Source: a virus
Length of the DNA stretch: 54,273 bases
Virus record (IMG/VR): IMGVR_UViG_3300043431_000269
Location: 1-54,273 of that record
Reading direction: 5' to 3' (one strand)
Shown here in pieces: positions 167-53,262 of this stretch; position 1 is the stretch's first letter, and each line of letters starts with the position of its first letter. The notes beneath the pieces are model-generated. The model had not been told where the DNA came from and did not search any database. It saw only the letters and a list, made by a program, of their open reading frames with translations. The position numbers were made by a program, and so were the translations under genes.

Positions 167-571
167 ATGCACGCAGACTTCGAACTCACGCCAGACGGCC
201 GCGTCAAGTCGTCGAATTACGGCGGGCGCCGCGAAGGCGCCGGGCGCAAGCCACCCGGCTACGTCAAACCGCAGGAAGTGGTCGATTACGACCGCGAGCG
301 CGCGCGCAACGAGAAAGCCAAGGCCGACCTGAACGAGCTGGACTTCAAGGTGAAGTCGGGCGAGTACGTGCCGCGCGAATCGGTACAGCAGGCTGCCGCG
401 ACGCTGCTGTCCACACTGGCTCAAACGCTGAGATCGCTGCCGGACAAGATCGAGCGAAAGCTCAACGCCTCGGCCGAGATCACCGAGCTGATCGAACAGG
501 AAATCGACGCCTGTCTGGAAGACCTGTCGAAAGACCTACAAATGCTGGCAGGGGAGCCTGACGATGTTTGA
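167..571 (+). CDS. terminase small subunit
   Basis: A 134-residue protein that should bind the packaging start site and recruit the large subunit. It begins with a basic, glycine-rich stretch (GGRREGAGRKPPGY, residues 19-32) typical of phage small terminases, followed by a long charged helical region (DYDRERARNEKAKADLNELD) and an acidic C-terminus. Its place directly before the GpA-type large subunit supports the call. Its stop overlaps the next start by 8 bases, which suggests coupled translation. The family assignment rests on composition, size and position; the DNA-binding fold itself is not directly visible. Confidence 0.8.
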   Translation: MHADFELTPDGRVKSSNYGGRREGAGRKPPGYVKPQEVVDYDRERARNEKAKADLNELDFKVKSGEYVPRESVQQAAATLLSTLAQTLRSLPDKIERKLNASAEITELIEQEIDACLEDLSKDLQMLAGEPDDV

Positions 572-767
572 CATAGCCATCGAGCGAACGATGTTCGAGG
601 ACTCGATCTGGAGCTACTACCAGAACCTCAAACTGAACGGTTGGTCTGACCCAGCAGAAGGCGACAACAAACGGGGGTGCCTGTTTTGGCGTGACGAGAA
701 CGGGCAGTACGGCGTGAAATCGATCGAGGCCGCCTGGTCGGGTTGGCAAATGAGGGCGCGATTTTGA
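564..767 (+). CDS. small hypothetical protein between the terminase genes
   Basis: A 67-residue aromatic-rich protein (for example SIWSYYQNLKLNGW) that overlaps the small terminase gene by 8 bases and the large terminase gene by 25 bases. Such tight overlaps on both sides suggest a translated gene in the packaging operon. It has no membrane segment or motif I recognise. Small proteins in this position sometimes act as terminase accessory factors, but there is no direct sign of that here. Confidence 0.55.
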   Translation: MFDIAIERTMFEDSIWSYYQNLKLNGWSDPAEGDNKRGCLFWRDENGQYGVKSIEAAWSGWQMRARF

Positions 768-2968: not shown

Positions 2969-2988
2969 GTTAGCAAACGCGATATAAT
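2960..2988 (+). promoter_or_regulatory. sigma70-like promoter downstream of the terminase gene
   Basis: TTGCGC at 2960-2965, a 17-base spacer and a perfect TATAAT at 2983-2988. The spacer ends in GCAAACGCGATA (2973-2984), and the same 12 bases lie in the cro-type promoter at 44939-44950. This suggests the immunity repressor or Cro binds here. A start near 2995 would fall on the first base of the long RNA stem that follows. Confidence 0.65.
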
Positions 2989-2994
2989 TTACTC

Positions 2995-3191
2995 GACACT
3001 GAAAACCGCCTCGGGTTAGCGCCGGGGCAGCGTTTCATGACTGGAATGGACCCCTCACTCAACAGCGAAAGACTGCTTCATGTCAGGGTTTTCAGTGTCA
3101 TCACGAGTGGCGATTGCCTAGACGAAACAGCCATATCTCCTTTAGGGCAGCCAAAGAGGTGTTTCGTTTTGGGAAAGGGCAGTCGTCACTC
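2995..3191 (+). ncRNA. structured non-coding RNA or leader between terminase and head-joining genes
   Basis: No convincing gene fills 2969-3412. A transcript from the promoter just upstream would fold into two large hairpins. The first has a perfect 13-bp stem, GACACTGAAAACC (2995-3007) with its complement at 3087-3099. The second has a 14-bp stem with two G-U pairs at 3105-3118 and 3178-3191, with an inner 8-bp stem ACGAAACA/TGTTTCGT at 3122-3129 and 3160-3167. No U-tract follows, so this is not a simple terminator. The two G-U pairs favour selection on RNA over DNA. Function unknown: a small RNA, an attenuating leader for the head genes, or a packaging-related RNA are all open. Confidence 0.55.
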
Positions 3192-3318
3192 TTGATCGTG
3201 AATGCGAACCCGGGGCGCGCCGAATGCGCGCGTTGCTCCGCAGAGCATGTGTGGCGCCTGGCGGCCCGCTTGCACCGTACTGCATGACACCTCGGAAAGA
3301 CGAGGCCGTCTTCTAGGT

Positions 3319-3368
3319 GAATTTCACTCGAAATTCGACCTTCGTGCGCTGAATTTCGCACGAAATTG
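3319..3368. promoter_or_regulatory. pair of AATTTC-N4-GAAATT palindromes
   Basis: Two similar palindromes, GAATTTCACTCGAAATTC (3319-3336) and GAATTTCGCACGAAATTG (3351-3368), start 32 bases apart, close to three DNA turns. Same-face spacing is typical of paired operator sites. They lie 45-95 bases before the gpW-like gene. A related shorter palindrome (ATTTC-N4-GAAAT) lies at 28668-28681, after the last tail gene. The binding protein is unknown. Confidence 0.45.
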
Positions 3369-3412
3369 TGCCGCAGTGTCCCAATCGCCAAACGCGCGAT
3401 GATCGGGCCACT

Positions 3413-3634
3413 ATGGCAGTCACCCAAACCGACATCGACTCACTGAACGCCGCGATCGCAAGCGGCGCCCGTTCCGTGACCATTGGCGGCCAGACCGTCA
3501 TCTACAACACCACGGAATCGCTGATCAAGGCCCGGGACGACGCGCAGCGCCAGCTCAACGCGCAAACCGCAGCCGAATCGGGCGCCCGCCGCCGCAAGCA
3601 GTTCTATCTCATTCACGGCGGCCGGGGATACTAA
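3413..3634 (+). CDS. gpW-like head-tail joining protein
   Basis: A 73-residue protein with the pattern of the gpW family: an N-terminal helix (DIDSLNAAIASG), a short beta hairpin (SVTIGGQTVIYN), a second helix (SLIKARDDAQRQLNAQ) and a basic tail ending in RRRKQFYLIHGGRGY. In lambda, gpW sits between the large terminase and the portal gene, exactly as here, and plugs the portal channel before tail joining. I chose the ATG at 3413; an in-frame ATG at 3368 would add 15 residues that overlap the palindrome region and look non-native. Confidence 0.8.
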   Translation: MAVTQTDIDSLNAAIASGARSVTIGGQTVIYNTTESLIKARDDAQRQLNAQTAAESGARRRKQFYLIHGGRGY

Positions 3635-5629
3635 ATGGCGACACGCGGCAGACCGCCTAAGCAGGAAACGCTGGTCGCGCGCGCGGCCGTCGAGATGTTC
3701 CGGGAAGCCCAGGGCGTGCTCCCCGGGCAAAGCGGCAAGCAGGTGCTGCAGCCGCGCGCCAAGTACGACGCGGCCGGGCAGGGCCGGCGCCTTGCCGGAT
3801 GGAACCCTCCGTCGAGCGGCCCGAACCGGGCCATCGAGGGGCTGCAGACAATCCGCAACCGCTCGCGCGATTCTTCGCGCAACGACTGGTCGGGCTCGTC
3901 GGCGACGCAGAAGTGGGTCACGAACTTGATCGGTATCGGCATCACGCCGCGCTTCAAGCGCATCACCAGCCCGGAGCGCAAGAGCAAGCTGCAGGACCTG
4001 TGGGCCGATTTCGTGCAGGTCTGCGATGCGGACTGCGTGCTCAACTACTACGGGCTCCAGACCCTTGGCACGCGCTCGCTGCTGGATGCTGGCGAGGTGT
4101 TCGTGCGGCGCCGAGCGCGCTTTGAGAGCGACGGCCTGCCGGTCCCTCTGCAGTACCAAATCATTGAAGCCGAGATGGTCCCGATGTTGGACGCGGACAC
4201 CTACAAGGGTCTGCCGGCCGGCAACAAGATTCGCTCAGGTATCGAGCTGGACAAACGCGGGCGCCGGGTGGCGTATTGGGTCCACAAGGAGCACCCGAAC
4301 GAGAAGTCGATGGGCTACATCGACCCTGGCGCGCTGGTGCGCGTGCTGGCCGGCGACATGATTCACGTCTTCGAGCCGTTGCGCGCCGGGCAGTTGCGCG
4401 GCGTGTCGATGCTCGCGCCGATCCTCACGCGCTTGAGGAACATCGAGAACTACGACGACGCGACGCTGACGCGACAGCAGCTCGCCAACCTGATCGTGGC
4501 CTTCATCACGCGCAAGCTGCCGCCGCTGACTGGCGACGAGGACATCAACGGCATGACCGGCGAGCCGTATCAGGTCGATGAAACCGGCACGCCGCTGGCC
4601 GCGCTGCAGCCTGGTCTGGTGCAAGAACTCGATGACGGCCAAGAGGTGACGTGGAGCAACCCGCCCGAGGCCGGGACCAACTACAGCGACTACATGCGGA
4701 CTCAGCATATGGGCACCGCTGCTGGGACCGGACTGCCCTATGAGCTGTTCTCGGGCGACATCAAGGAGGTGAGCGACCGCACCCTGCGGATCATCATCAA
4801 CGACTTCCGGCGCCATGCCGAGCAGCGCCAGTGGCAGATCATCATTCCGCAGTTCTGCCAGCGGACCCTGGAGTGGTTCGTCGATGCCGCCGTGCTCGCG
4901 GGTAAGGTGTCCGTCGCAGAAGCCGACCTGGCGCGCCGTGTCGAGTGGGCTACCCACGGCTGGGCTCACATTCACCCGGTTCAAGACCCGCAGGGCAAGC
5001 AGCTTGAGGTGGATGCAGGCTTCCGCAGCCGGTCGAGCGTGATCGCGGATCGCGGTGACGACCCTGACGAAGTGGATGCCGAGCGCGCAGCGGACAAGAA
5101 GCGCGCCGAAGACCTCGGCCTCAGTGTCGATCCTGCGGCTGCCGCTGCCTCTGCGACGGCGGACCAACAGCAGCAGTCTGACCAGCAGCAGCAACAGCAG
5201 CAGCAGGATCAACAAGTCCGGGCCTTGGCGATCCTGGCCTCGCTACAGGAGCAAATGCGCGGCCAGCAGGAGGCGATGCAAGCCGCGATGGCCGCGCTGA
5301 ACCAGAAGCCTGCTGACCCGGTGCAGTTGACCATCAACAACCACATCCCGCAGACGGTCGTGGAGAACTCGGTCCAACCGAGCGCCGTGACCGTGCAGAA
5401 CAACATCGAGCCGACGCCACTCAACGTCTCGGTGCAGAACAACGTCGAGCCCACGCCGCTCAACGTCTCGGTGGCCGCGCCGACCGTGGAAGTTCACAAC
5501 GACGTGCAACCCGCCGAGGTCAACGTGAACATCCCGGCGCGCAAGACCGACACGACCATCGTGCGCGATTCGAGCGGGAACATCGTGCGCGCAACTCAGA
5601 TCGAAACCGACGCCGACCCGGCGCAATAA
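3635..5629 (+). CDS. portal protein, lambda GpB family
   Basis: A 664-residue portal protein that forms the dodecameric DNA channel. It starts 1 base after the gpW gene. The body has features of lambda portals (ARSRDSSRND-type arginine-rich segment near residue 75, GTGLPYELFSGDIKEVSDRTLR near residues 370-390). The C-terminus is unusual: a poly-glutamine run (about residues 510-526) and then near repeats of NNVEPTPLNVSV (about residues 587-612) that end in a charged tail. Such repetitive portal tails are common and vary between phages. Unlike lambda, the prohead protease is not fused or adjacent but 5 kb downstream. Confidence 0.93.
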   Translation: MATRGRPPKQETLVARAAVEMFREAQGVLPGQSGKQVLQPRAKYDAAGQGRRLAGWNPPSSGPNRAIEGLQTIRNRSRDSSRNDWSGSSATQKWVTNLIGIGITPRFKRITSPERKSKLQDLWADFVQVCDADCVLNYYGLQTLGTRSLLDAGEVFVRRRARFESDGLPVPLQYQIIEAEMVPMLDADTYKGLPAGNKIRSGIELDKRGRRVAYWVHKEHPNEKSMGYIDPGALVRVLAGDMIHVFEPLRAGQLRGVSMLAPILTRLRNIENYDDATLTRQQLANLIVAFITRKLPPLTGDEDINGMTGEPYQVDETGTPLAALQPGLVQELDDGQEVTWSNPPEAGTNYSDYMRTQHMGTAAGTGLPYELFSGDIKEVSDRTLRIIINDFRRHAEQRQWQIIIPQFCQRTLEWFVDAAVLAGKVSVAEADLARRVEWATHGWAHIHPVQDPQGKQLEVDAGFRSRSSVIADRGDDPDEVDAERAADKKRAEDLGLSVDPAAAAASATADQQQQSDQQQQQQQQDQQVRALAILASLQEQMRGQQEAMQAAMAALNQKPADPVQLTINNHIPQTVVENSVQPSAVTVQNNIEPTPLNVSVQNNVEPTPLNVSVAAPTVEVHNDVQPAEVNVNIPARKTDTTIVRDSSGNIVRATQIETDADPAQ

Positions 5630-5638
5630 GGAGAAACC

Positions 5639-6010
5639 ATGTCCGTCAACTACACGACCGCAGTCAAGAACGCGCGCCTGGGCGCCGTCGTCACTGCCAT
5701 CGGCACAGCCGGCGTGCTGGAAATCGGCACCACCGGCATGGGAACCGTGCTGGCGACGATTCCGCTTGCCAACCCGGCCGGGACCACTTCCGGCGGGGTG
5801 CTGACCTTCTCGGGCTTCCCGAGCAGCGACACGTCGGCCGACAACACCGGCACTGCAGCGGCCGCGCGCATTCGCACTGCCTCGGGCGGCACCGACATCC
5901 TGACCGGCCTGACCGTGGGCACGTCGGGCACCGATGTGATCCTCGACAGCGTGAGCATCACTGCCGGCCAGACCGTGACGCTCACCAGCGCCACCATCAC
6001 GCACGCCTGA
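5639..6010 (+). CDS. hypothetical virion-type protein
   Basis: A 123-residue protein made mostly of Gly, Thr, Ser, Ala and Val, with alternating hydrophobic segments that suggest an all-beta fold (for example ILTGLTVGTSGTDVILDSVS). It has a good ribosome-binding site (AAGGAG) and sits just after the portal gene. The composition resembles decoration or fibre-associated proteins. It shares its style with the 150-residue protein at 6844, and the two may be related. No family recognised. Confidence 0.7.
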   Translation: MSVNYTTAVKNARLGAVVTAIGTAGVLEIGTTGMGTVLATIPLANPAGTTSGGVLTFSGFPSSDTSADNTGTAAAARIRTASGGTDILTGLTVGTSGTDVILDSVSITAGQTVTLTSATITHA

Positions 6011-6012
6011 TC

Positions 6013-6444
6013 ATGACCGGGCTGCGCATGGCGTTCCAGCATTCGGGCCGTGTCGGTCCGATGAAGTTGGTCGCGCCGGTTGCCGCGCTGCTCGACCACG
6101 GACCATACAGCCACACCGAGATTCAGCTCCCTGACGGAACGTGCTGCAGCTCCGTCCCTGGTAGCGGGGTAGTCATGCGCAAGTTGCACCTCGACCCAGC
6201 GCATTTCGACTTCCTGCCGTTGTCCAATGGGCTGCTTCAGCAGGTCGTCAACTGGTACGAGGCCCACCAGGGTCATGCGTATGACTGGCGCGGGAACCTG
6301 CGATTCCTGGCTCCGCTCGTGCGCGAGTCGAGCGCGCGCTGGTTCTGCTCGGAATCGAATCTCGCTGCGTTGGGCGTTCCGCAGCCGTGGCGCCACGGTC
6401 CGACCGGCGCCTATCACTTGATCAAATGGAGGTACGTCGCATGA
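6013..6444 (+). CDS. NlpC/P60-type papain-like hydrolase or amidase-like protein
   Basis: A 143-residue protein with the pattern of the permuted NlpC/P60 (YiiX/C92-like) fold. A His-x-Glu appears in YSHTEIQL (about residues 32-39), and a Cys in RWFCSESNLAAL (about residues 112-123) is the likely nucleophile. Such enzymes cut peptide or amide bonds, often in peptidoglycan. Here it could be a virion-associated wall hydrolase or act on a lipid or peptide substrate. The order of catalytic residues is seen; the substrate is inferred. Its stop overlaps the next start (ATGA). Confidence 0.6.
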   Translation: MTGLRMAFQHSGRVGPMKLVAPVAALLDHGPYSHTEIQLPDGTCCSSVPGSGVVMRKLHLDPAHFDFLPLSNGLLQQVVNWYEAHQGHAYDWRGNLRFLAPLVRESSARWFCSESNLAALGVPQPWRHGPTGAYHLIKWRYVA

Positions 6445-6842
6445 CGCTACTCGCTGAAATCCAGGCGAAGTGCTCGCCGGAACTGATTGCCTCGAAGGAG
6501 CACGGTGCCATCGCTGCGCTGGTGTCCGAAGGGCGCACGAAAATCGTAGAGCGCATCGGCGGCATTGGCACGGTGCTGCGGCATCTTGGCCCGGTCGATG
6601 GTCCGGCGCTGCTCGATGCTCTTGACGCGCTGCGCACCACGGTGCCGGCGATCCGTTGGGGTTGGGTGCTGCTGGATCGCGGGCAACTCGATTTCGGTAG
6701 CCCGGTTGTGCGCCAGTTGATCGACCAGTTGGCAATCGACGGCGTGATGACCTCGGCCCATGCCGAGCTTCTGAAGGGCCTGGCCGTCGAGCCTGACCCG
6801 GTTAGCGTGCAGGAAGTCGCGTCGGCGATGGAGGGTCTGTGA
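6441..6842 (+). CDS. hypothetical protein
   Basis: A 133-residue mostly helical protein (TLLAEIQAKCSPELIASK..., then several Leu/Ala-rich helices). The ATG at 6441 overlaps the stop of the previous gene, so translation is probably coupled. No motif is recognised and there is no membrane segment. Its pairing with the NlpC/P60-like gene suggests the two work together, but there is no direct evidence. Confidence 0.65.
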   Translation: MTLLAEIQAKCSPELIASKEHGAIAALVSEGRTKIVERIGGIGTVLRHLGPVDGPALLDALDALRTTVPAIRWGWVLLDRGQLDFGSPVVRQLIDQLAIDGVMTSAHAELLKGLAVEPDPVSVQEVASAMEGL

Positions 6843-6843
6843 G

Positions 6844-7296
6844 ATGACGACGATTACCGCGGCGGCAGGTAGCCGCACCAACCTCACGAGCAGCGCGCTC
6901 AACTCGCTCGCCAGCGCGACCTACGTCAGCGCCGGCACCATCGACGTGAGCGCCACCGACCCGCTGGACGTGGTGATCGAAGTCGAGGCAACGCCCGGCA
7001 CGGTGTCGGGCAACAAGCAGCTCGTCGTGTTCTTGAAGGTGAGCTTCGACAACACGAACTTCAGCACGGGTCCGGAAAGCGGGACGACCACGACTGATGA
7101 GACAAATCTGCGCTTTCTCGGCACGTTGCCGTTGGGCACCAGCTCGGCGCAACAGCGCGGCGCGTACAGCGTTATGGGTGCCCTGGGCTATGTGCCACCG
7201 TATTTCAAGGTCGTGGTCAAGAATGACTCGGGCGCGGCGCTGGCTTCGTCGGGCCACGCAGTCAACTACACCGCTTACGTCGGCAACGCGGCCTGA
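6844..7296 (+). CDS. hypothetical beta-rich structural protein
   Basis: A 150-residue Ser/Thr/Gly/Ala-rich protein with regular short hydrophobic strands (DPLDVVIEVEATPG, KQLVVFLKVSFDN, YFKVVVKNDSG), as in beta-sandwich virion proteins. It starts 1 base after the previous stop. It likely belongs to the same module as the LamG-repeat protein that follows, possibly as a fibre subunit or decoration. No family recognised. Confidence 0.65.
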   Translation: MTTITAAAGSRTNLTSSALNSLASATYVSAGTIDVSATDPLDVVIEVEATPGTVSGNKQLVVFLKVSFDNTNFSTGPESGTTTTDETNLRFLGTLPLGTSSAQQRGAYSVMGALGYVPPYFKVVVKNDSGAALASSGHAVNYTAYVGNAA

Positions 7297-7308
7297 TCGG
7301 ACACCATA

Positions 7309-8967
7309 ATGGCCCACTTGATTCTCCCCTGGCGTCGGGTAGTCCAGCCGCAAGGTGCGGTCGAGATCGACTGGGGCAATCCGCTGGCCCCGGCCCGAAC
7401 TCTCAGTGGGGTTTGGACGCCAGATCGGAACTTTGTCACGGGAAAGGGTATCTCGTTTTCCGGTAGCGGCGGTGCGCCGACAAAGGCCATCGAGGCTTCA
7501 GGTGTAGCCATCGCCACAACGGGTCAGTATATTCAGACGGACGTACCGGCCACATCATTCAGTGCCGCCACGTTCGTGGCCGTAATCACGCCGGCAGCAG
7601 CGCCAACAAACGCCAACTACAGTTCGTTCTTGCAGACCGGGGGGATTACGCTCAACTGGAACCACCAAGACAACAATTTTGCTGGCGCGCTAACCATTTA
7701 CTCGGGCGGTAGTTTTCGAACGCTAAAATGGGCAGGCGGATTCACGGCAGGTAAAGAAGTCGTCATAGCGGGTAGCTGGCAGGCTGCTACTACGACAAGC
7801 AAGATTTTTCGCAACGGGGTGCTTGAGAACTCCAGAAGCGATCACGCGGCTACGCTTTCTGGTACGCAAGTGGCGTTGCAGTTCCTTGGCGGACAGGGTG
7901 GCACGGCGGCATGGTCTGGGTCGTCGTGCTTCCTATACTTTGACGGAACGCGCGCGCGCAGCGATGCCGAAATCAAGGCGCTATCCGAGAACCCTTGGCA
8001 GATTTTCAAGCCCCTGCAACGACGCATTTGGGTTCCGGTGTCAAGCACGGGCGGGGATGTCACTGGCTCGGTCACAGCCAGCGAAGCCGGGCTTGACACG
8101 GCTGCGCTGACCGGGCAGGTGCTGACGAGCGGGTCCGTGGCGGCGGTCGAGAGCGGGTACGACAGCGCCAGCGCGTCGGGCGCCGTGCGCGTGGCCGGCA
8201 CCCTGGCGGTGTCCGAGGCTGGCGGTGACTCAGCGGACTGCGCGGGTTGGGTGTTCGTCCAGGGCACCCTGGTGGCCTCGGAATCTGGCGCGGACGAGGC
8301 TGCCGTTGCCGGGCTAGTGCTGTCTGGCGGACGACTGGCCGCCCAAGAGTCCGGCGCTGACACCGCCAGCGCCCAGGGCGCTGTGCGCGTGGCCGGAGCA
8401 ATCGCTGCGCAAGAGGCGGGCGATGACACCGCCAGCGCCCAGGGTGCCGTGCTCGTCTCTGGCGCCGTGGCAGTGCAAGAGACGGGTCAGGATGGCATGG
8501 CGGCGTCTGGCGGCCGTGTCTCGGCAGGTGTGCTGTCTTCGCAAGAGGCCGGTGAGGACAGCGCCAGCGCGTCGGGTGCTGTGCGTGTGGCTGGCGCAAT
8601 TGCTGCGCAAGAGGCCGGCGCTGACACCGCGAGCGCGGCGGGCGCCGTGCGCGTGGCCGGCGTGGTAGCGGCCAGTGAAGCGTCGGACAGCGCCAGCGCA
8701 TCGGGATTCGTGCTCGTTCTCGGCGGCCTGTCTGCGGACGAGGGGGCCGACACGGCCGCCGCTGAAGGCGTCGTCGAGGCCGCCGCCTTGCCGCTCTCAG
8801 ACCGCGAGATGCGGGACCTCTACAAGTGGGTCTCCGAGCTGGCAAAGCTGCACGGCCTGATCAAGACAGCACCCCTCCAAGTGTCCGCCACGGAGCGCCG
8901 GGCCGGCGACATCGTGCAAACGGTAGTCACTGCCCCGGGCGGTATCACGACAGTCACACGCTCGTAA
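7309..8967 (+). CDS. LamG-like protein with eleven 22-residue repeats
   Basis: A 552-residue protein. Residues about 40-240 look like a concanavalin/LamG sandwich (FTAGKEVVIAGSW..., SKIFRNGVLENSR..., SCFLYFDGTRARSDAEIKAL), a fold that often binds glycans. Residues about 252-490 hold about eleven tandem repeats of roughly 22 residues with the pattern G-x-V-x-x-x-G-x-L-x-x-x-E-x-G-x-D-x-A-x-A (for example AGAIAAQEAGADTASAAGAV). The final 60 residues are helical, then charged. Likely a tail-fibre or capsid-surface adhesin. Repeat number could vary between related phages because the DNA repeats are also similar. Confidence 0.65.
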   Translation: MAHLILPWRRVVQPQGAVEIDWGNPLAPARTLSGVWTPDRNFVTGKGISFSGSGGAPTKAIEASGVAIATTGQYIQTDVPATSFSAATFVAVITPAAAPTNANYSSFLQTGGITLNWNHQDNNFAGALTIYSGGSFRTLKWAGGFTAGKEVVIAGSWQAATTTSKIFRNGVLENSRSDHAATLSGTQVALQFLGGQGGTAAWSGSSCFLYFDGTRARSDAEIKALSENPWQIFKPLQRRIWVPVSSTGGDVTGSVTASEAGLDTAALTGQVLTSGSVAAVESGYDSASASGAVRVAGTLAVSEAGGDSADCAGWVFVQGTLVASESGADEAAVAGLVLSGGRLAAQESGADTASAQGAVRVAGAIAAQEAGDDTASAQGAVLVSGAVAVQETGQDGMAASGGRVSAGVLSSQEAGEDSASASGAVRVAGAIAAQEAGADTASAAGAVRVAGVVAASEASDSASASGFVLVLGGLSADEGADTAAAEGVVEAAALPLSDREMRDLYKWVSELAKLHGLIKTAPLQVSATERRAGDIVQTVVTAPGGITTVTRS

Positions 8968-9167
8968 TGCTAGACCCGCTCGCCATCGCACTGCAGGGGG
9001 TCGGCTTCGGCCCGGCAGTATTCGCGCTCCAGGGCTTCGTCGAGGACGACGAGGCGCAAGGCGAGCCTGGTCTGACTGCTGCGTGGGTGCCAGCGCCCGA
9101 GCGGAAGAAGAAGCGCAAGCGCCGCGACACCGACGACGACGCGATCTTCCTCTTTTTGCTTTCCTAA
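8967..9167 (+). CDS. small hypothetical protein with basic C-terminus
   Basis: A 66-residue protein whose ATG shares one base with the stop of the LamG-repeat gene. It has a hydrophobic N-terminus (LDPLAIALQGVGFGPAVFALQGF), a basic run (RKKKRKRRD) and an acidic-hydrophobic end. Too little to assign a role. Its coupling to the upstream gene suggests it belongs to the same fibre or surface module. Confidence 0.55.
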   Translation: MLDPLAIALQGVGFGPAVFALQGFVEDDEAQGEPGLTAAWVPAPERKKKRKRRDTDDDAIFLFLLS

Positions 9168-9170
9168 CTG

Positions 9171-9186
9171 CGAAATATGGCCGCAG
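9171..9186 (+). promoter_or_regulatory. copy of the 16-bp CGAAAT-N3-GCCGCAG motif
   Basis: CGAAATATGGCCGCAG lies 3 bases after a stop codon and before the next gene. Four other copies lie at 3361-3376, 10854-10869, 14786-14801 and 20043-20058, all on the plus strand within the virion arm. Function unknown; see findings. Confidence 0.4.
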
Positions 9187-9246
9187 GCGTGATTCGCTCG
9201 CGTGCGCGAGACTTCAGGCATTCGTCAACAAGAATATCGCCGCGCC

Positions 9247-9633
9247 ATGAACGACAAATTCGTGCCGCAGCCGAAGTCCCGCGAAGTTGAGGGTGCGTGC
9301 GATACGTGCGTAAAGCGTCTGCTGACCGAGGATCAGGCTGCAAGAATGATCGAAACCTCTATCGAGGAAGCAGTCGAGTGTTACGACTCGACGATCAAGC
9401 ATTTCATCGACGAGAAAGTTTCCGAACTCAATAAGCAGTTGAAGGACAGCTTTCCAAATGGTGATGCGGCAGGGCATCGCGTTGCTCATGAAGCGTTCAT
9501 CAAAGCTGCTATTGCAAGAAGCCAACTGCAGCAGAGCGTTCTGGAGAAGACGATCGGTGGAATTGTCTGGAGCTTGGCGATCTTAGTTGCCGTGTGCGTT
9601 TGGGAATACGCCAAGGGAGCAATCCGCAAATGA
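9247..9633 (+). CDS. hypothetical protein with C-terminal membrane segment
   Basis: A 128-residue protein. Its N-terminal half is charged and holds a CDTC pair (near residues 18-21); the C-terminus has one clear membrane segment (GGIVWSLAILVAVCVWEY). It opens the lysis cluster. It might be a lysis accessory or anti-holin-like protein, but only its topology supports that. The ATG at 9247 is preferred over an in-frame ATG at 9202, whose extension is arginine-rich and lies over the conserved intergenic motif region. Confidence 0.65.
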   Translation: MNDKFVPQPKSREVEGACDTCVKRLLTEDQAARMIETSIEEAVECYDSTIKHFIDEKVSELNKQLKDSFPNGDAAGHRVAHEAFIKAAIARSQLQQSVLEKTIGGIVWSLAILVAVCVWEYAKGAIRK

Positions 9634-10064
9634 GCCGTTCCGTAGTGCTGGCCCTGCGGTTCTGGCCGTTTGTCCTGGGGATTCTGATCGTCTTCTTGCT
9701 CAACTTCGCGGAGCGGGCAGTTTACCCGGTGATTCGAGACTTCGTGATCTCGGAAATCCAGTACGAAGGCGACTCGATGTTCGTCCGAGGCTACATGCGC
9801 AAAACACGCGCGTGCAAGTTTGTCGGTGTATCGACTGAAGCCTGGGATGGATCGACATGGGTCGAACTGCCATTGCAGTTCATGGACACCGCTAACCACA
9901 AGGCGACCCGACCCACTGGAACTCAAGCATGGGGTCCGTGGCGTATCGAGCTACCGATTAGATCGCAAGCGGCAGCGATTCGCATGTCTGCCCTTCACAG
10001 TTGCCACCCGGCATGGTCAACCGAGACCCGGCTGACTCAATTTCCCTTGGAGCACCGCAAATGA
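9630..10064 (+). CDS. hypothetical N-terminally anchored membrane protein
   Basis: A 144-residue protein whose ATG overlaps the previous stop (ATGA). Residues about 4-24 are a strong hydrophobic segment (LALRFWPFVLGILIVFLLNF). The remaining 110 residues have Cys (KTRACKF, LHSCHP) and aromatic residues and probably lie in the periplasm. It is translationally coupled on both sides to small membrane proteins. A lysis-timing or host-envelope role is an inference from position. Confidence 0.65.
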   Translation: MSRSVVLALRFWPFVLGILIVFLLNFAERAVYPVIRDFVISEIQYEGDSMFVRGYMRKTRACKFVGVSTEAWDGSTWVELPLQFMDTANHKATRPTGTQAWGPWRIELPIRSQAAAIRMSALHSCHPAWSTETRLTQFPLEHRK

Positions 10065-10120
10065 TCCTGTTCTGGATGATCTTTCCGCGCCTCTTTCAAC
10101 TCTTTTGGATGAAACCATGA
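10061..10120 (+). CDS. 19-residue hydrophobic micro-protein
   Basis: A reading frame coding for MILFWMIFPRLFQLFWMKP, bounded by ATGA overlaps at both ends (10061 with the previous gene, 10117-10120 with the holin gene). That double coupling is the main reason to think it is translated. It is almost entirely hydrophobic and could insert in the membrane, or only carry ribosomes through to the holin start. Many gene finders would miss it. Confidence 0.45.
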   Translation: MILFWMIFPRLFQLFWMKP

Positions 10121-10320
10121 AGCTCTACGACAACTGGCAGTCGATCATCACGAAAGCGTGGTCGGTGCGACTCATGAGCTTGACCGTCGTGCTGCAGGTC
10201 ATCGACGCCGCGCTGCCGGTGCTCGCAACTGTCCTCCCGCATGGCGCAGTGAGCGCGCTCACAGCGATCTCAGCTATCGGCGCCATCGTGGCGCGCGTTG
10301 TGCCGCAGAGCGACCTGTGA
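10117..10320 (+). CDS. putative holin
   Basis: A 67-residue protein with an amphipathic N-terminus (KLYDNWQSIITKAWSVR), one clear membrane segment (LTVVLQVIDAALPVLATVL) and a second hydrophobic stretch (AVSALTAISAIGAIVARVV). It sits directly before the lysozyme gene, with a GTGA overlap. Size, topology and context fit a small class II-type phage holin or pinholin that depolarises the membrane and releases the SAR endolysin. Confidence 0.75.
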   Translation: MKLYDNWQSIITKAWSVRLMSLTVVLQVIDAALPVLATVLPHGAVSALTAISAIGAIVARVVPQSDL

Positions 10321-10826
10321 GCCGCAGCAGCCGCATCGTCGTCGCATCGCTGGCCTTGTCGGCTGCTGCATTCGTCGGGATCGTTTCGGAGGAAGGCTAC
10401 ACGACCTCTGCTGTGATCCCGACGAAGAACGACCGCCCGACCGTCGGGTTCGGCAGCACCTTCCGAGAGGACGGCACGCGCGTCGAGATGGGTGACACCA
10501 TCGACCCCGTGCGCGCCGTTCAACGCAGCGCCGCGCACATCGCCAAGGGCGAGACCGGCTTGAAGTCCTGTCTCACCGCGCCGCTGCACCAAGCCGAATA
10601 CGACACGCTCGTCGATTTTGCTTACCAGTACGGCGCATCTGCGACCTGCAAGTCGTCGATGGTGCGCCACGCGAATGCTGGCGATTACGCGCAGTCGTGC
10701 GAGGCGTACACGCTCTATCGATTCAGCGGCGGCTACGACTGCTCGACACCGGGAAACAAGGTTTGCTCCGGGGTCTGGTTGCGAAACCTCGCCCGGCGCG
10801 ATCGCTGCCGAGCAGCGTCGAAGTAG
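10317..10826 (+). CDS. SAR-type endolysin, GH24-like lysozyme
   Basis: A 170-residue lysozyme starting at GTG 10317 that overlaps the holin stop. Residues 7-23 (IVVASLALSAAAFVGIV) are a weakly hydrophobic signal-anchor-release segment. It is followed by the catalytic region EEGYTTSAVIPTKNDRPTVGFG, where E26, D39 and T42 fit the Glu-Asp-Thr triad of phage lysozymes. Several cysteines follow, as in SAR endolysins that refold in the periplasm. It cuts peptidoglycan glycan strands. No Rz/Rz1 spanin pair is visible next to it. Confidence 0.85.
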   Translation: MSRSSRIVVASLALSAAAFVGIVSEEGYTTSAVIPTKNDRPTVGFGSTFREDGTRVEMGDTIDPVRAVQRSAAHIAKGETGLKSCLTAPLHQAEYDTLVDFAYQYGASATCKSSMVRHANAGDYAQSCEAYTLYRFSGGYDCSTPGNKVCSGVWLRNLARRDRCRAASK

Positions 10827-10853
10827 CTGCATTGGGAGCGCTGTGCATGCGCG

Positions 10854-10905
10854 CGAAATCGTGCCGCAGGCCCCCAACTTGAGGTGCGAATACAGTTCGC
10901 CTCAA
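10854..10905 (+). promoter_or_regulatory. 16-bp motif followed by a hairpin before the protease gene
   Basis: The 97-base gap after the endolysin holds CGAAATCGTGCCGCAG (10854-10869) and then an imperfect hairpin: TTGAGG-TG-CGAA (10879-10890) with TTCGCCTCAA (10896-10905). The ribosome-binding site AAAGGA of the protease follows. The hairpin could protect or insulate the messenger 5' end. No T-tract, so it is not a terminator. Confidence 0.4.
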
Positions 10906-10923
10906 TTAGTAAAGGATTCGCAC

Positions 10924-11949
10924 ATGCGCCCGTGCTTCGCATTCAAAAACCTCGCGTCGGCCGACGACACGCCTGCGGTTTTGTCGATCTACGACGAGAT
11001 CGGTTTTTGGGGCGTGCAAGCTAAGGACTTCATCAAGGACCTGGGTGCAGTCAAGAGCGCTGTACTGAACGTCGAGATCAACTCTCCGGGCGGCGACGTG
11101 TTTGCCGGCCTGGCGATCTACAACGCGCTCAAAGGCTCCGGCAAAGAGATCGTCGTGAAAGTCATGGGCGTTGCCGCAAGCGCCGCGTCGCTGATTGCGA
11201 TGGCCGGCGACAAGATCGTGATGCCCAAAAACACGTTCATGATGGTGCATAACCCGTGGTCGTTTGCGATGGGCAACGCCGAGGAACTGCGTCAGCAGGC
11301 CGACGTGCTCGACAAGATCGGTAGCTCGCTGCTGGCGACCTATGTCGCTCGCACCGGCAAGCCCGAAGACGAGATCGCACCGTTGCTGGCGAAGGATACG
11401 TGGCTCACCGCCGACGAGGCCTTGGCCCTGGGCTTCGCAACCGAGGTCGTCTCCGACATCACCGCCAACGCGCGCTTTGACATGGCGCGCGCGGAGCTGC
11501 CGGAGGCCGTCAAGGCGGTCTTCGCGCTGACGGCGCCGGCCGATCCGGCTGCGGCCGCTCCGGTCCCGGCAGTGAACGTGGCGCTGGCCGACCAGATCGA
11601 GGCACGTGCGAAGGCGGCCGACATGGGCGGTTATGCGGCCATGTGGGCAGTTACCTGCGACTCGCTCGCCCAGGTCGATTCGCGCATCGCCGATGCGCGC
11701 GAGATCGTGGCGCTGTGCGCGGTGGCGAAGAATCCCGCGATGGCGGACGCATCGATTCGCGCGGGCATGCCCGTCTCGGCGGTTCGCGCAGCACTCGTTC
11801 AGGCCCTCGCCGAACACGACGCCGATACGCACACCAGCACGGCGCGATCCACTACCAACGAGCAACCGACCGGCGATGCGAAGCCTGCTACGACCGCCGC
11901 TCTTTGGGCTTCCCACACCAACGGTCGTAAAGAAAGGACCAAGAAATGA
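10924..11949 (+). CDS. ClpP/S49-like prohead protease
   Basis: A 341-residue serine protease of the ClpP/crotonase fold used to mature proheads. Visible motifs are the oxyanion strand NSPGGDVFAG (about residues 59-68), the nucleophile region GVAASAASLIAMAGD (about residues 83-97), the catalytic His in FMMVHNPW (about residues 105-112) and downstream helices through WLTADEALALGFATEV. The last 120 residues are Ala-rich and probably serve as a scaffold, as in lambda C/Nu3. Its ATG at 10924 has a good ribosome-binding site. Its separation from the portal gene by a lysis cassette is unusual. Confidence 0.92.
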   Translation: MRPCFAFKNLASADDTPAVLSIYDEIGFWGVQAKDFIKDLGAVKSAVLNVEINSPGGDVFAGLAIYNALKGSGKEIVVKVMGVAASAASLIAMAGDKIVMPKNTFMMVHNPWSFAMGNAEELRQQADVLDKIGSSLLATYVARTGKPEDEIAPLLAKDTWLTADEALALGFATEVVSDITANARFDMARAELPEAVKAVFALTAPADPAAAAPVPAVNVALADQIEARAKAADMGGYAAMWAVTCDSLAQVDSRIADAREIVALCAVAKNPAMADASIRAGMPVSAVRAALVQALAEHDADTHTSTARSTTNEQPTGDAKPATTAALWASHTNGRKERTKK

Positions 11950-12314
11950 CCACTACCCTGACCTCCGTCCCTCGCGTGGAGGAATTCGTCCTCTCCGAAG
12001 GCAATGGCTTTATCAGCCGTGAAGAAGTGACCGTCACCCTCGGCGCCAGCGCGCTGAAGTCGGGCACGGTGATGTCCAAGCTGACCGCCACCGGCAAGTG
12101 GGTGGCCTATGACGACTCCGGCACCGATGGCACCGAGACCGCCTCGGGCATCCTCTACACCGCCCTGCCGATCGGCACTGGCGATGTGTCCGCCGTGATG
12201 TTCGTGCGCGACTGCGAAGTGGTGCGCGCGGCCCTGACGGGCCTGAACGCCAACGCGGAAGCGGACCTCGCGGCCAAGGGCGTCATCGTCCGTGGCACCT
12301 ACACGACCAAGTAA
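11946..12314 (+). CDS. head decoration protein, lambda gpD family
   Basis: A 122-residue protein with gpD-like order: an N-terminal arm (EEFVLSEGNGFISREEVTV), then a beta-tulip fold segment (SGTVMSKLTATGKWVAYDD), GILYTALPIGTG, VMFVRDCEVVRAAL and a C-terminal GVIVRGTY. gpD trimers clamp the expanded capsid. Its position between the protease and major capsid genes is the same as in lambda. The start overlaps the protease stop (ATGA). Confidence 0.88.
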   Translation: MTTTLTSVPRVEEFVLSEGNGFISREEVTVTLGASALKSGTVMSKLTATGKWVAYDDSGTDGTETASGILYTALPIGTGDVSAVMFVRDCEVVRAALTGLNANAEADLAAKGVIVRGTYTTK

Positions 12315-49051: not shown

Positions 49052-49068
49052 AACTGCAGCAAAAATAC

Positions 49069-49152
49069 CCCTGCAAAAACCTCCCTGAAAAAACCTCCCT
49101 GAAAAAACCTCCCTGAAAAAACCTTCCTGAAAAAGACCCCTGCAAAAAGCGC
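49069..49152. repeat. six 14-bp tandem repeats (iteron-like)
   Basis: Units of CCCTGAAAAAACCT repeat head-to-tail from 49069 to 49152: three exact copies (49083-49124) flanked by variants (CCCTGCAAAAACCT at 49069-49082, TCCTGAAAAAGACC at 49125-49138, a degenerate last unit). They lie after the primase-helicase and Mor-like genes. Short direct repeats of this kind next to a replication gene are typical of iteron-type origins. The 14-bp period (about 1.3 turns) is unlike the 20-22 bp of classical iterons. The minus strand would read T-rich runs (TTTTTTCAGGGAGG). Confidence 0.6.
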
Positions 49153-49778: not shown

Positions 49779-50130
49779 GTTCGTGCCACTGATTTGTCAA
49801 GACTTCTACTGCACTACACTTAATCCTCCTGCTTCTGAGGTTGCAACGTGTCCCGCCGTGTAGCCGACAACCCTCAGTTGCTGGCGCTGCTAGGCGTATA
49901 GGAATAAAAATTGAACGGGAGGGTACTCCCACCCCCGGGGTGTTCAATTCTATACATTGTGTTGCACCGCAGTAAAGCCGTTTATGACAATCAGCAACTG
50001 CTACGGGTCTTTACCGATCAAGAAGTTGCCGGAGATTGTTGCGAAAAAGCGCGAGCCCCTTTCCGGTTGATCCCCGTCAATCCATCCCCGTCCCGTTCGC
50101 GCTGGCGCTGCAGCGCCTGGCGGTCCCAGA
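49779..50130. other. non-coding region left of the 29-bp array
   Basis: No gene is supported. The stretch has a nested hairpin: ATTGAAC (49910-49916) with GTTCAAT (49942-49948), enclosing GGGAG/CTCCC (49917-49921, 49926-49930). Next it holds a leading degenerate copy of the 29-bp unit near 50101-50130. With the array it forms a 900-bp gap. I see no -10/-35 pair I would trust here. Confidence 0.4.
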
Positions 50131-50560
50131 GCTCGACCTGCAGCGCCAGCGGTCCCAGAGCTCGACCTGCAGCGCCAGCGGTCCCAGAGCTCGACCTGCA
50201 GCGCCAGCGGTCCCAGAGCTCGACCTGCAGCGCCAGCGGTCACTAGGCTCGACCTGCAGCGCCAGCGGTCCCTAGGCTCGACCTGCAGTGCCAGCGGTCC
50301 CTAGGCTCGACCTGCAGCGCCAGCGGTCCCAGAGCTCGACCTGCAGCGCCAGCGGTCCCTAGGCTCGACCTGCAGCGCCAGCGGTCCCTAGGCTCGACCT
50401 GCAGCGCCAGCGGTCCCTAGGCTCGACCTGCAGCGCCAGCGGTCCCTAGGCTCGACCTGCAGCGCCTGGCGGTCCCTAGGCTCGACCTGCAGCGCCAGCG
50501 GTCTCTAGGCTCGACCTGCAGCGCCAGCGGCCCCAGAGCTCGACCTGCAGCGGCTATCGG
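50131..50560. repeat. 29-bp tandem array, 15 copies
   Basis: Fifteen head-to-tail units of about 29 bp starting with GCTCGACCTGCAGCGCCAGC at 50131, 50160, 50189, 50218, 50247, 50276, 50305, 50334, 50363, 50392, 50421, 50450, 50480, 50509 and 50538 (the last is partial). Two main types alternate in the last bases (CCCAGA or CCCTAG). Each unit has GACC/GGTC arms and a CTGCAG. There are no spacers, so it is not a CRISPR array. The period does not favour coding because 29 is not a multiple of 3. Possible roles are a partition or origin-like array, a protein-binding array, or a recombination site. Confidence 0.9.
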
Positions 50561-50610: not shown

Positions 50611-50656
50611 AGCCTAGGGGTCGCCATGCTTTCGCATGACGACCCCTAGGCGCTTT
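50611..50656. terminator. bidirectional terminator
   Basis: A 12-bp stem GCCTAGGGGTCG (50612-50623) with CGACCCCTAGGC (50640-50651), plus CATG/CATG inside (50625-50628, 50635-50638) and a 6-base loop. On the plus strand TTTCATTTTTT follows; on the minus strand TTTTT follows at once. It should end the minus-strand accessory operon and stop any plus-strand transcript from the repeat array. Confidence 0.85.
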
Positions 50657-50727: not shown

Positions 50728-50958
50728 CTACTTCATTGCGGTCTTCATGTGCCGCGTCCAGCCGAAAAGAAGCTCTATCGCCGCGTCCACATGCGCGGGG
50801 GATGTCGCAGGCTCGCACTTGCGCATGTAGGCCCTGCACGCCGTCCCGCTCGCATCGTCTGCCGTATGACAGGTGATTTCGTGCGGCCGGTCCTTCGGGT
50901 TGTCCAGCCAGAAAATAGCAGGCTTTCCACTGGCGTTTATTTTGATTTCGAGTTTCAT
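50728..50958 (-). CDS. hypothetical protein, last gene of the accessory operon
   Basis: A 76-residue protein (MKLEIKINASGKPAIFWLDNPKD, then CHTADDASGTACRAYMRK, AIELLFGWTRHMKT). It has a beta-hairpin-like start and two Cys. The ribosome-binding site is AAGGGAAA. A bidirectional terminator follows. The gap before it holds a 9-codon micro-ORF. Confidence 0.6.
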   Translation of the reverse strand: MKLEIKINASGKPAIFWLDNPKDRPHEITCHTADDASGTACRAYMRKCEPATSPAHVDAAIELLFGWTRHMKTAMK

Positions 50959-50977: not shown

Positions 50978-51007
50978 TCAATCGACATTGAATTTCCCAG
51001 TCAACAT
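50978..51007 (-). other. 9-codon micro-ORF after the first repeat cassette
   Basis: The first intergenic cassette ends in a ribosome-binding site and ATG at 51007, like the other copies. Here the frame is only MLTGKFNVD and a stop. In the other three copies the ATG/GTG opens a full gene. It may be the remnant of a lost gene, or a leader peptide for the 76-residue gene. Confidence 0.4.
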
Positions 51008-51092
51008 TTTGATTTCCCCTTTTGCGGCACCGTGCCGGACATGCCCACTGCAGGAATGGGCAAGTGCGACTATCGCGACTAGCGCGAGATCA
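51008..51092 (-). repeat. intergenic cassette, copy 1 (diverged)
   Basis: An 85-bp copy of the intergenic cassette, more diverged than the others. On the minus strand it starts with the TGA stop of the 198-residue gene, then CTCGCGCTAGTCGC, a TTGCCCATTCCTGCAGTGGG segment, CGGCACGGTGCCG and GGGGAAATCAAAATG. It lacks the TAATAT present in the other copies. Confidence 0.75.
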
Positions 51093-51686
51093 CGCCGTGA
51101 CGATATCGCGTGTTTCCCAGTAACGACGCTGTCGAGCTTCGCGCAACGCCGCGCGCCAGGCTTGCCGCTTTTGATCGAACACTGATTCGGCGATTCTGGC
51201 GGCCATTTCCTTTGCCTCGTTCTCGACATAGTCCATGTCTTCGCGCGAGCATCCGTAATCGAAACCCCAGCACGAGTCGGACTCGATTTCTTCGCCGTCA
51301 GCATTCAGCGCAGTAACAGTGATCCCGATGTAATACCGTTCACCAGTCAACCATTCGCGGCAATGCTCCATATCCCGCATCACGGCAGCGCGGACAATCT
51401 GGCGCTTAGTCATCACAGAAGTGTTGCCAGAGATTCCCCAGCCTTCAGACTTCGCCTTTTCGGTCGTTCCTTTGAAGTCATACAACCAGTAATGCCCACG
51501 GTCGGAATGGATGATCACCTCCCCGGGCGATTTCTCGGGGCGGCCGTAATGGGCGATAGCTTTGCGAATAATCCCGTGGCCGTCGCATTCATCCCATGGC
51601 ATGCCGTGGTCATTGTCATATGCGAGTTCAATTCGCACGGGTATCCCGTGAAGAACGATGGTTTCTGTATTAAAGGCTTCAGACAC
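51090..51686 (-). CDS. hypothetical accessory protein
   Basis: A 198-residue protein that begins at GTG 51686 directly after a cassette. It is aromatic- and acidic-rich (VRIELAYDNDHGMPWDECDGHG, GEVIIHSDRGHYWLYDFKGTTEKAKSEGWG, ITVTALNADGEEIESDSCWGFDYGCSREDMDYVENEAKEMAARIAE). It looks like a cytosolic alpha-beta protein. Such accessory genes in phages often act on host functions. I recognise no family. Confidence 0.65.
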   Translation of the reverse strand: MSEAFNTETIVLHGIPVRIELAYDNDHGMPWDECDGHGIIRKAIAHYGRPEKSPGEVIIHSDRGHYWLYDFKGTTEKAKSEGWGISGNTSVMTKRQIVRAAVMRDMEHCREWLTGERYYIGITVTALNADGEEIESDSCWGFDYGCSREDMDYVENEAKEMAARIAESVFDQKRQAWRAALREARQRRYWETRDIVTA

Positions 51687-51762
51687 TTCGATTTCCCCTT
51701 TTGCGGCACTGTGCCGATATTACCCACTGCGAGAATGGGCAATAGCGACTAGCGCGAGATCA
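51687..51762 (-). repeat. intergenic cassette, copy 2
   Basis: A 76-bp cassette that is the whole gap between two genes. Minus-strand order: the TGA of the 299-residue gene, CTCGCGCTAGTCGCTATTGCC, GTGGGTAATATCGGC, CGGCACAGTGCCG (6-bp stem with 1-base loop), AAAAGGGGAAATCGAA and GTG. It differs from copy 3 at only two positions. Confidence 0.85.
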
Positions 51763-52659
51763 AGCGGCCTGTCCCAGTTCGGAGCTGATCAGTCCGAGGG
51801 ATTCGGCCATTTTGTAAATCTCGGAATAGGGGATGTCGTGGCAACCAACGACAATCGACCCATTGGCGCGAATCATCTCCAGCATGTAATGACCAACGCG
51901 CGTACCGTTGATGGCGACATCCCTGCCGGTACGCCTAGCGGCTTCGATCATCGGCCAGATACTTGATGCCGCCGAAACGGGGATGTCAGCGCCGCGCGAC
52001 GTTTGGATGACCTGCAGTTCGATATTGACCCGAAGCGCAACCGGGAAGTCAGAAAACCCCGAAACGCTCACCTGCTTGCCTTGAATCCAGGCATTCAACC
52101 TACCTTCTGCTTCGCGCATGCGGGCGATACGCGCGATTTCCTCGCGTTCGCGCCGGCCAGCCTCATATTTGAGCATCACCTCGCGGAGGTATTCGAGGTT
52201 GCTCGTATCGAACGGGGTACATCCGCCACGCTCACCTTCAGGAAGCGCCGCCAGGTAGGCGTTAGCGTTCGCTGCCGTCAGGAGTGCGGCCGCCTTTCGA
52301 GCATCTCGCGTCCGTTGCAGAATCCGTGGCGCTTCGGCGGATCCGAGGGCCGCGACGATTTCTTCTTGCGCCTGGCGCATGTTGGCGGCCGCAGTGTTGG
52401 CCGGGTCATGGCAAAAGACGACCTTGTAATGGCGCGCAGCGGAACGGGCGCAACGGATGTGCGCCGCCGTGGTATTGCTATAGATTCGAGTCGTGAAGGC
52501 GACTGCGCCGGACGGCAGAATGCGGGCTATGCAGAAATGACGCCCGTAACTGAAGCAACTATCCCCGTTGAAAAACACGTTTCCCGAACGGCCCTCGGAT
52601 TGGACTTGATTCGCCCAGTAATGAAAAACCTCATTCGATGACTTAAGAGCTTTGCGCAT
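51760..52659 (-). CDS. hypothetical accessory protein
   Basis: A 299-residue protein starting at ATG 52659, directly after a cassette. The N-terminal half contains CFSYGRHFCIARIL, HYKVVFCHDPANTAAANMRQAQEEIVAAL, and the middle has a charged coiled coil (EAGRREREEIARIARMREAEGRLNAW). The C-terminus is alpha-beta (MIRANGSIVVGCHDIPYSEIYKMAESLGL). I recognise no family with certainty. A related-looking style of His/Cys residues is seen in the neighbours. Confidence 0.65.
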   Translation of the reverse strand: MRKALKSSNEVFHYWANQVQSEGRSGNVFFNGDSCFSYGRHFCIARILPSGAVAFTTRIYSNTTAAHIRCARSAARHYKVVFCHDPANTAAANMRQAQEEIVAALGSAEAPRILQRTRDARKAAALLTAANANAYLAALPEGERGGCTPFDTSNLEYLREVMLKYEAGRREREEIARIARMREAEGRLNAWIQGKQVSVSGFSDFPVALRVNIELQVIQTSRGADIPVSAASSIWPMIEAARRTGRDVAINGTRVGHYMLEMIRANGSIVVGCHDIPYSEIYKMAESLGLISSELGQAA

Positions 52660-52735
52660 TTCGATTTCCCCTTTTTCGGCACCGTGCCGATATTACCCAC
52701 TGCGAGAATGGGCAATAGCGACTAGCGCGAGATCA
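52660..52735 (-). repeat. intergenic cassette, copy 3
   Basis: A 76-bp cassette, nearly the same as copy 2. It begins at the TGA stop of the 150-residue gene and ends at AAAAAGGGGAAATCGAA just before ATG 52659. It contains CGGCACGGTGCCG, a perfect hairpin, and TAATAT. Confidence 0.85.
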
Positions 52736-53185
52736 GATCGGGGCGTATTTAAGCGCGTAGCCGCCCGCATTGTCTGGCACGCCGTTACGTGTACCGTGAG
52801 GTTCCGGCGTACCGTGAGGCCACATTGCGGAGCCGAGGTAATAAAAACCCATGTCCATGCTGCAACCGGAAACTTTCAATCCACCGTCGCGCCCTATTTT
52901 CCATCCCAACAAGACAGACGCCCTGCAAGTGATATCCACCATTTTGCCATGGTAGACGACAAAAAGGCTGATTGTGCGAGACATGCCCGAGGACGAAACG
53001 GACCGAACCCGCGCGTAAATGGTGGACCCTGGCTCAATCATTTCGAGCAGGCTGGCGCGAGCTTGATTGTATAGCTCGCGATCGCCTTCGGCGGCCGACA
53101 CGCGGACCGAATCATTGTAGTATTCAGGATGTTCAGTGGTGAACACTCGCCCGTTGGGTGCTTTTAAGTATTGAAGTTTCGCCAT
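52733..53185 (-). CDS. hypothetical accessory protein
   Basis: A 150-residue protein beginning right after a cassette. The middle, IYARVRSVSSSGMSRTISLFVVYHGKMVDIT, reads like a small beta domain found in some phage proteins with the SSSGMSR pattern. The C-terminus is Gly-rich (GCSMDMGFYYLGSAMWPHGTPEPHG). Function unknown. Confidence 0.65.
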   Translation of the reverse strand: MAKLQYLKAPNGRVFTTEHPEYYNDSVRVSAAEGDRELYNQARASLLEMIEPGSTIYARVRSVSSSGMSRTISLFVVYHGKMVDITCRASVLLGWKIGRDGGLKVSGCSMDMGFYYLGSAMWPHGTPEPHGTRNGVPDNAGGYALKYAPI

Positions 53186-53254
53186 TTTATTTCCCCTTTT
53201 TCGGCACCGTGCCGATATTACCCACTGCGAGAATGGGCAATAGCGACTAGCGCG
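53186..53254 (-). repeat. intergenic cassette, copy 4
   Basis: A 69-bp copy that ends with AAAAAGGGGAAATAAA before ATG 53185 and is otherwise like copies 2 and 3 through CGGCACGGTGCCG, GTGGGTAATATCGGC and CGCGCTAGTCGCTATTGCCC. The far end differs and runs into the TAA stop region of the 78-residue gene. Confidence 0.85.
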
Positions 53255-53262
53255 GGCGAATG

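Follow-up and report, generated by a model that had tools for sequence, protein, structure and literature searches.

In the early region of bacteriophage T7, which served as a control in this work, the spacers 0.4/0.5, 1/1.1, and 1.2/1.3 are approximately 75 to 80% alike and run from at or near the stop codon of the upstream gene to the next ribosome site. We take these spacers to be the RNase III processing sites of T7, the record of which carries no such annotation. The SAS/ESAS repeats of cluster K mycobacteriophages measure 13 bp, occur in 11 to 19 copies, and are conserved across the cluster, combining a ribosome-site core with an upstream inverted repeat in about half of the cases (PMC3203893). 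Integron attC sites have also already been published in phages (PMC9892861). Here, we compare with these systems a repeated spacer that stands ahead of four consecutive reading frames in a phage genome and that is a lineage-specific form of a known kind, the repeated structured spacers of phage operons.

The window, i.e., the whole stretch of DNA analyzed, is a 54,273-base linear virus record of a tailed phage, in which a terminase, portal, major head protein, tape measure, DNA polymerase, helicase, exonuclease, and primase were identified. Four minus-strand copies of the spacer, 70 to 85 nt in length, sit toward the right end of the window, in a group of small genes that run leftward, where they fill the intergenic gaps ahead of the starts at 53185, 52659, 51686, and 51007 (Table 1), exactly where the first-pass annotation had placed them. 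All four are confined to 2.2 kb of this one contig. Copies 2 and 3 differ at 2 of 76 positions, a count that had been given previously and was reproduced here; copies 3 and 4 show no difference over 66 nt, and copies 2 and 4 are 97% identical (97 to 100% for copies 2 to 4 overall, across the part that they share). Copy 1 is diverged, with 83 to 84% identity to each of the others, 9 extra bases, and 12 substitutions in 75 positions aligned with copy 3. A 26-nt block at the 3' end (CGGCACNGTGCCGNAAAAGGGGAAAT) was observed four times, against 0.00 occurrences expected from shuffled sequences, and by this test the repeat itself is real beyond doubt. Copies 1 to 3 open with the stop codon TGA of the upstream gene, as had been claimed for the element as a whole, while copy 4 opens approximately 8 bases past a TAA. 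Similarly, the element ends at the start of the next gene in copies 2 to 4 and not in copy 1, where the start at 51007 opens only a 9-codon frame. The sequence ahead of the starts is AAAAGGGGAAAT, the ribosome site AAAAGGGGAAA following the small hairpin described below. The flanking proteins had been called unrelated, and they do belong to different PHROG families (12365, 7247, and 11104).

Table 1. Repeated spacer copies, their predicted hairpins, and neighboring features (window coordinates)
Feature	Positions	Strand	Remarks
Copy 4	53186-53255	-	Between gene 53499-53263 and gene 53185-52733; without leading TGATCT
Copy 3	52660-52735	-	From TGA of gene 53185-52733 to start of gene 52659-51760
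Copy 2	51687-51762	-	From TGA of gene 52659-51760 to GTG of gene 51686-51090
Copy 1	51008-51092	-	Diverged, 9 additional bases; from TGA of gene 51686-51090 to ATG of 9-codon frame
Hairpin I of copy 4	53211-53247	-	11-bp stem, 1x1 C.U, lower stem GUCG/CGGC, 5-nt loop
Hairpin I of copy 3	52686-52722	-	
Hairpin I of copy 2	51713-51749	-	
Hairpin I of copy 1	51034-51070	-	Two pairs changed on both sides yet paired, one GU to GC, one broken (U.U), mismatch C.C
Hairpin II of copy 4	53202-53214	-	CGGCACGGTGCCG; CGGC common with lower stem of hairpin I
Hairpin II of copy 3	52677-52689	-	
Hairpin II of copy 2	51704-51716	-	CGGCACAGTGCCG
Hairpin II of copy 1	51025-51037	-	
Gene after copy 4	52733-53185	-	Small phage protein, phrog_12365, no known function
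Gene after copy 3	51760-52659	-	phrog_7247, no known function; YIMV22061 homologue also between repeated spacers
Gene after copy 2	51090-51686	-	phrog_11104, no known function; GTG start
9-codon frame (MLTGKFNVD*)	50978-51007	-	Right after copy 1
76-aa gene	50728-50958	-	Next real start past copy 1; own ribosome site
Intrinsic terminator	50612-50651	-	Strong, 18-bp stem and T tract; closes operon

Close protein relatives of two of the genes were not found in IMG/VR. In Achromobacter phage AchV4, homologues of the genes at 53185-52733 and 51686-51090 are adjacent, with a 52-nt gap, whereas in the window a third gene, with a spacer copy on each side, stands between them. Since the two genes are adjacent in AchV4, a gene plus a spacer copy has been either gained in the window phage or lost in AchV4, which fits a spacer that helps genes to plug into the operon and does not require a dedicated recombinase. 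Repeats of other kinds were also seen on the contig: a 29-bp tandem array (GCTGGCGCTGCAGGTCGAGC...) at 50108-50552, just past the operon terminator; a short AAAAACCTCCCTG array with a 14-base period at 49061-49144; and, at the contig end (54138-54273), where the assembly probably stopped, a perfect repeat of 9 bases, (CCGCCGATG)n, one frame of which gives repeated Pro-Pro-Met.

Just upstream of the small palindrome CGGCACGGTGCCG lies a larger inverted repeat that the first-pass annotation had overlooked. This hairpin I, TATTGCCCATT-CTCGC-AGTGGGTAATA, comprises an 11-bp upper stem, a 5-nt loop, a 1x1 C.U mismatch, and a 4-bp lower stem, GUCG/CGGC; 20 positions are paired in copies 2 to 4, with 1x1 and 1x2 internal loops, and copy 1 is weaker. 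The palindrome, hairpin II, had been reported as a 6-bp hairpin around one base, which is correct for the DNA, where CGGCAC-N-GTGCCG is a perfect odd palindrome, and not for the RNA, where the hairpin has 5 bp and a 3-nt loop. The two hairpins are mutually exclusive, because CGGC is both the lower-stem arm of hairpin I and the first half of the hairpin II palindrome. The competing structures are of similar predicted stability in several copies, the balance varying with the copy and its flanks, and a fragment beginning at CGGC is predicted to fold hairpin II in all four copies, with the ribosome site right after it. A hidden ribosome site was also considered as the regulatory principle and was set aside as inconsistent between copies.

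In the upper stem, the comparison of copy 1 with copies 2 to 4 revealed two neighboring pairs in which both bases have been replaced without loss of pairing (UA to AU and AU to CG), one G-U that is replaced by G-C, and one pair that is broken. Across the alignment of hairpin I, 98.3% of the cells are paired, compared with 33 to 48% for slid partners, and none of the 12 substitutions in copy 1 falls in hairpin II or in the competing GUCG arm (chance probability of approximately 0.03). In every copy, folding is better for the mRNA-sense strand than for its complement; for hairpin I of copies 2 to 4, the free energies are -25 kcal/mol for the mRNA strand versus -16 to -20 kcal/mol for the opposite one. 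The folding z-scores are modest (-0.8 to -2.0), and the observed covariation values, which derive from a single divergence, that of copy 1 from the three near-identical others, are reached by 48 of 500 shuffles. Taken together, these sequence comparisons are suggestive, not strong, evidence that the pairing in the element matters.

A survey of phages with homologues of these genes revealed that it is not unusual for such operons to contain repeated cassettes ahead of start codons. Limnohabitans phage YIMV22061 (PQ492660), a member of the Autographiviridae, encodes a homologue of the gene at 52659-51760 (45% identity) that has one hairpin spacer copy on each side. The phage holds three such repeated spacers (7451-7548, 7898-8000, and 8912-9014 of the stretch examined), all ahead of the phage RNA polymerase gene, and the remaining, first copy lies between a sigma-70-like promoter and the first gene of the cluster. 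A geometric hairpin scan, which passes the T7 site at 6414-6452 and copies 2 to 4 of the window, found in this first spacer 11 bp, a 1x1 C.C mismatch, 7 bp, and a 5-nt loop, matching the window geometry; copies 2 and 3 of YIMV22061 form shorter hairpins. The spacers are not mentioned in the paper on the phage (PMC12195039). A different, GC-rich repeat array adjoins the YIMV22061 operon (7087-7310 of the stretch examined). In Sphingobium phage Lacusarx (16551-23760), approximately ten repeats of 70 to 110 nt in the terminal-repeat region end at start codons and contain CtrA-type boxes and a -35-like CTTGAC; the promoter-like and CtrA-type boxes represent a different solution, and these repeats were rejected as the same thing as the window element. 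In Caulobacter phage CcrRogue (2606-9556), GTTAAG...CTAGNGT boxes recur before several early genes, with GC-rich hairpin leaders downstream of them.

The explanation that we favor, with a confidence somewhat short of even, is that the element is a T7-like intercistronic cassette with an RNA-processing or RNA-stabilizing hairpin, spread through one operon of small genes. It is supported by the conserved and partly compensated pairings, by the better folding of the mRNA strand, by the lack of promoter and attC signatures, by the strong terminator past the last gene, and by the layouts seen in T7 and YIMV22061; the shorter hairpins of YIMV22061 copies 2 and 3 and the absence of the element from the nearest relatives count against it. 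Most likely, the spacer lets one long message be cut or protected gene by gene; we infer that the operon is transcribed as one unit, and likewise the nuclease, the point of cleavage, and the stabilizing role. The proposed course of events would be the following: (i) directly past the stop codon of the upstream gene, the mRNA would fold into the bulged hairpin I, presenting a putative double-stranded processing site of the RNase III type that would be cut in or near the internal mismatch; (ii) this cut, or alternatively strand exchange, would free CGGC; (iii) the downstream message would then start with hairpin II (CGGCA-CGG-UGCCG), which may protect its 5' end and would stand just ahead of the open AAAAGGGGAAA ribosome site, and a 3' structure would remain on the upstream message; and (iv) copies of the cassette would have been placed ahead of several genes and been kept alike.

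Alternatively, the element could act at the level of DNA, as a regulatory site repeated at gene starts, either a promoter or an operator serving a regulator of the phage or its host, in the manner of the ESAS of cluster K mycobacteriophages or the CtrA-box promoters of Lacusarx and CcrRogue; we consider this unlikely. The perfect odd palindrome, with its free center base (G or A), is in favor of such a site, as are the promoter-like hexamers included in the start-proximal repeats of Lacusarx, CcrRogue, and Gordonia phage Flapper and the published predictions of CtrA sites in Lacusarx and the phiCbK group (PMC9437464). A sigma-70 promoter scan, however, detected no -35/-10 pair (16- to 18-nt spacing) inside any of the four copies. 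The first-pass annotation had proposed that the element carries its own regulation, with TAATAT as a possible -10 box; this hexamer is part of the 3' arm of the hairpin I stem, is absent from copy 1, is without a -35 in copies 2 to 4, and was not flagged by the scan, and a promoter within the element was rejected on these grounds. The virion RNA polymerase of phage N4 recognizes a hairpin promoter with a 5-bp stem and a 3-base loop with a purine center. A promoter of this type is not favored here, given that the window encodes no protein near 3,500 aa (the largest frame is 1,362 aa) and that a transcription start there would remove the ribosome site. The DNA-level explanation is further opposed by the changes in the large inverted repeat, most of which preserve pairing and one of which, a GU step, is sensible only for coding-strand RNA, and by the statement of the ESAS authors that their own repeats do not support RNA pairing (PMC3203893).

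Outside the four copies, the element was not found in the rest of the contig or in plasmids, phages, IMG/VR, or GTDB species genomes. A search of the 76-bp unit across phage genomes, which had been proposed as a check, yielded no copy elsewhere; plasmid and phage DNA similarity searches returned short chance matches only, and pattern scans of IMG/VR and GTDB gave either no matches or chance matches to a 16-base pattern without the rest of the element, these scans of large collections being for exact patterns, which could miss diverged copies. The Rfam 15 covariance models gave no relevant match even at E values of up to 5, and a covariance model of the element detected no further copy in the window, 17 other phage stretches, or 15 related contigs, weak matches of 10 to 19 bits being taken as chance; the nearest relatives of the window phage, represented by these 15 contigs, are without the element. 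It has been suggested by the first-pass annotation that the element is a mobile unit, and the related idea of a recombination seam, at which units of gene plus element are added or shuffled between copies in the manner of integron cassettes or boundaries, with regulation secondary, can draw on the near-identical stop-to-start spacers that separate unrelated genes, on the arrangement in AchV4 relative to the window, and on the four attC-like sites that the related phage IMGVR_UViG_3300043430_000111 holds between tiny genes. We nevertheless regard a seam as decidedly improbable. The attC core GTTRRRY/RYYYAAC is missing, no GTT or AAC occurs anywhere in the element, GTTAGGC is absent from the whole window, and a tyrosine recombinase (PF00589) had no match in the contig, which may be incomplete and on which a host integrase could act; among four related contigs tested, three had a PF00589 match. 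In view of the absent core trinucleotides and recombinase, the identity of the element as an attC site was rejected, and the mobile unit is left unsupported by the same absences as well as by the lack of copies found beyond the contig. In addition, a seam does not need conserved competing hairpins. It is, in our judgment, quite unlikely that a single spacer underwent neutral, recent, tandem-type spread and was kept only for its good ribosome site, as could be argued from the near identity of copies 2 to 4 within such a short region and from the use of the ribosome-site motif AAAAGGGGAA without the element at 53716; in copy 1, which is older, hairpin II and the GUCG arm have been retained along with most of the stem, and in YIMV22061, an unrelated phage, a homologous gene is framed by spacers of the same layout. 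The simple local duplication of recent date that the first-pass annotation had named as the outcome, should the unit occur only here and RNA mapping show neither start sites nor processing in it, agrees with the restriction of the element to this contig but does not fully account for the divergence of copy 1, the stem changes of which mostly keep pairing.

Phage accessory operons quickly gain and lose small genes of no known function, and a ready-made isolating spacer, consisting of a stop codon, a protective or processing hairpin, and a ribosome site, would explain how unrelated genes are plugged into one transcript without losing their expression. If the favored explanation of a processing or stabilizing cassette is true, lineage-specific hairpin spacers around accessory genes would provide a simple marker for such operons as well as a source of natural insulator parts. 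A bolder generalization, which we hold to be very doubtful, is that there may be a class of phage intercistronic RNA switches with lineage-specific sequences and a common plan, in which a bulged hairpin competes with a short palindrome by the ribosome site and in which cutting or opening the first would free the second as a downstream 5' cap, unrelated phages having evolved such switches independently of one another around the same small accessory genes.

To conclude, the element can be placed among the known systems as follows. The likeness to SAS/ESAS drawn by the first-pass annotation is fair as an analogy, as both are repeats at the translation starts of non-structural genes of different families; unlike in SAS/ESAS, the 13-bp GGGATAGGAGCCC is not found 3 to 7 bp before the start, where the window has its own sequence, and the inverted repeats of ESAS are without an RNA-pairing signature, whereas the pairing in the window is mostly kept. 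With attC sites, the element shares a stop-to-start spacer of approximately 55 to 80 nt, imperfect inverted repeats, and small unrelated genes, but it has neither the conserved core trinucleotides nor a recombinase. The attC-like sites of IMGVR_UViG_3300043430_000111 (1-12000; terminase 76% identical to that of the window phage) lie on the minus strand at approximately 7209-7262, 7661-7718, 8003-8058, and 8431-8484 and consist of GCCTAAC ... GTTAGGC with internal boxes, forming a cassette array. The spacers of YIMV22061 likewise begin at or near a stop codon and combine a bulged hairpin with a short palindrome before the ribosome site, while no sequence similarity to the window element was found and their first copy follows a host-type promoter. 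Compared with T7, the sequence is different, a palindromic hairpin is added right before the ribosome site, the cleavage is only predicted, and the phage is siphovirus-like, with no RNA polymerase gene among the proteins examined. As in T7 R0.3 to R1.3, several similar hairpin spacers, here four related copies in 2.2 kb of one presumably early operon, run from the end of a gene to the next ribosome site, each with an irregular intercistronic hairpin of approximately 20 bp (weaker in copy 1), the upper stem of which resembles the 10- to 13-bp upper stems of the T7 RNase III sites.
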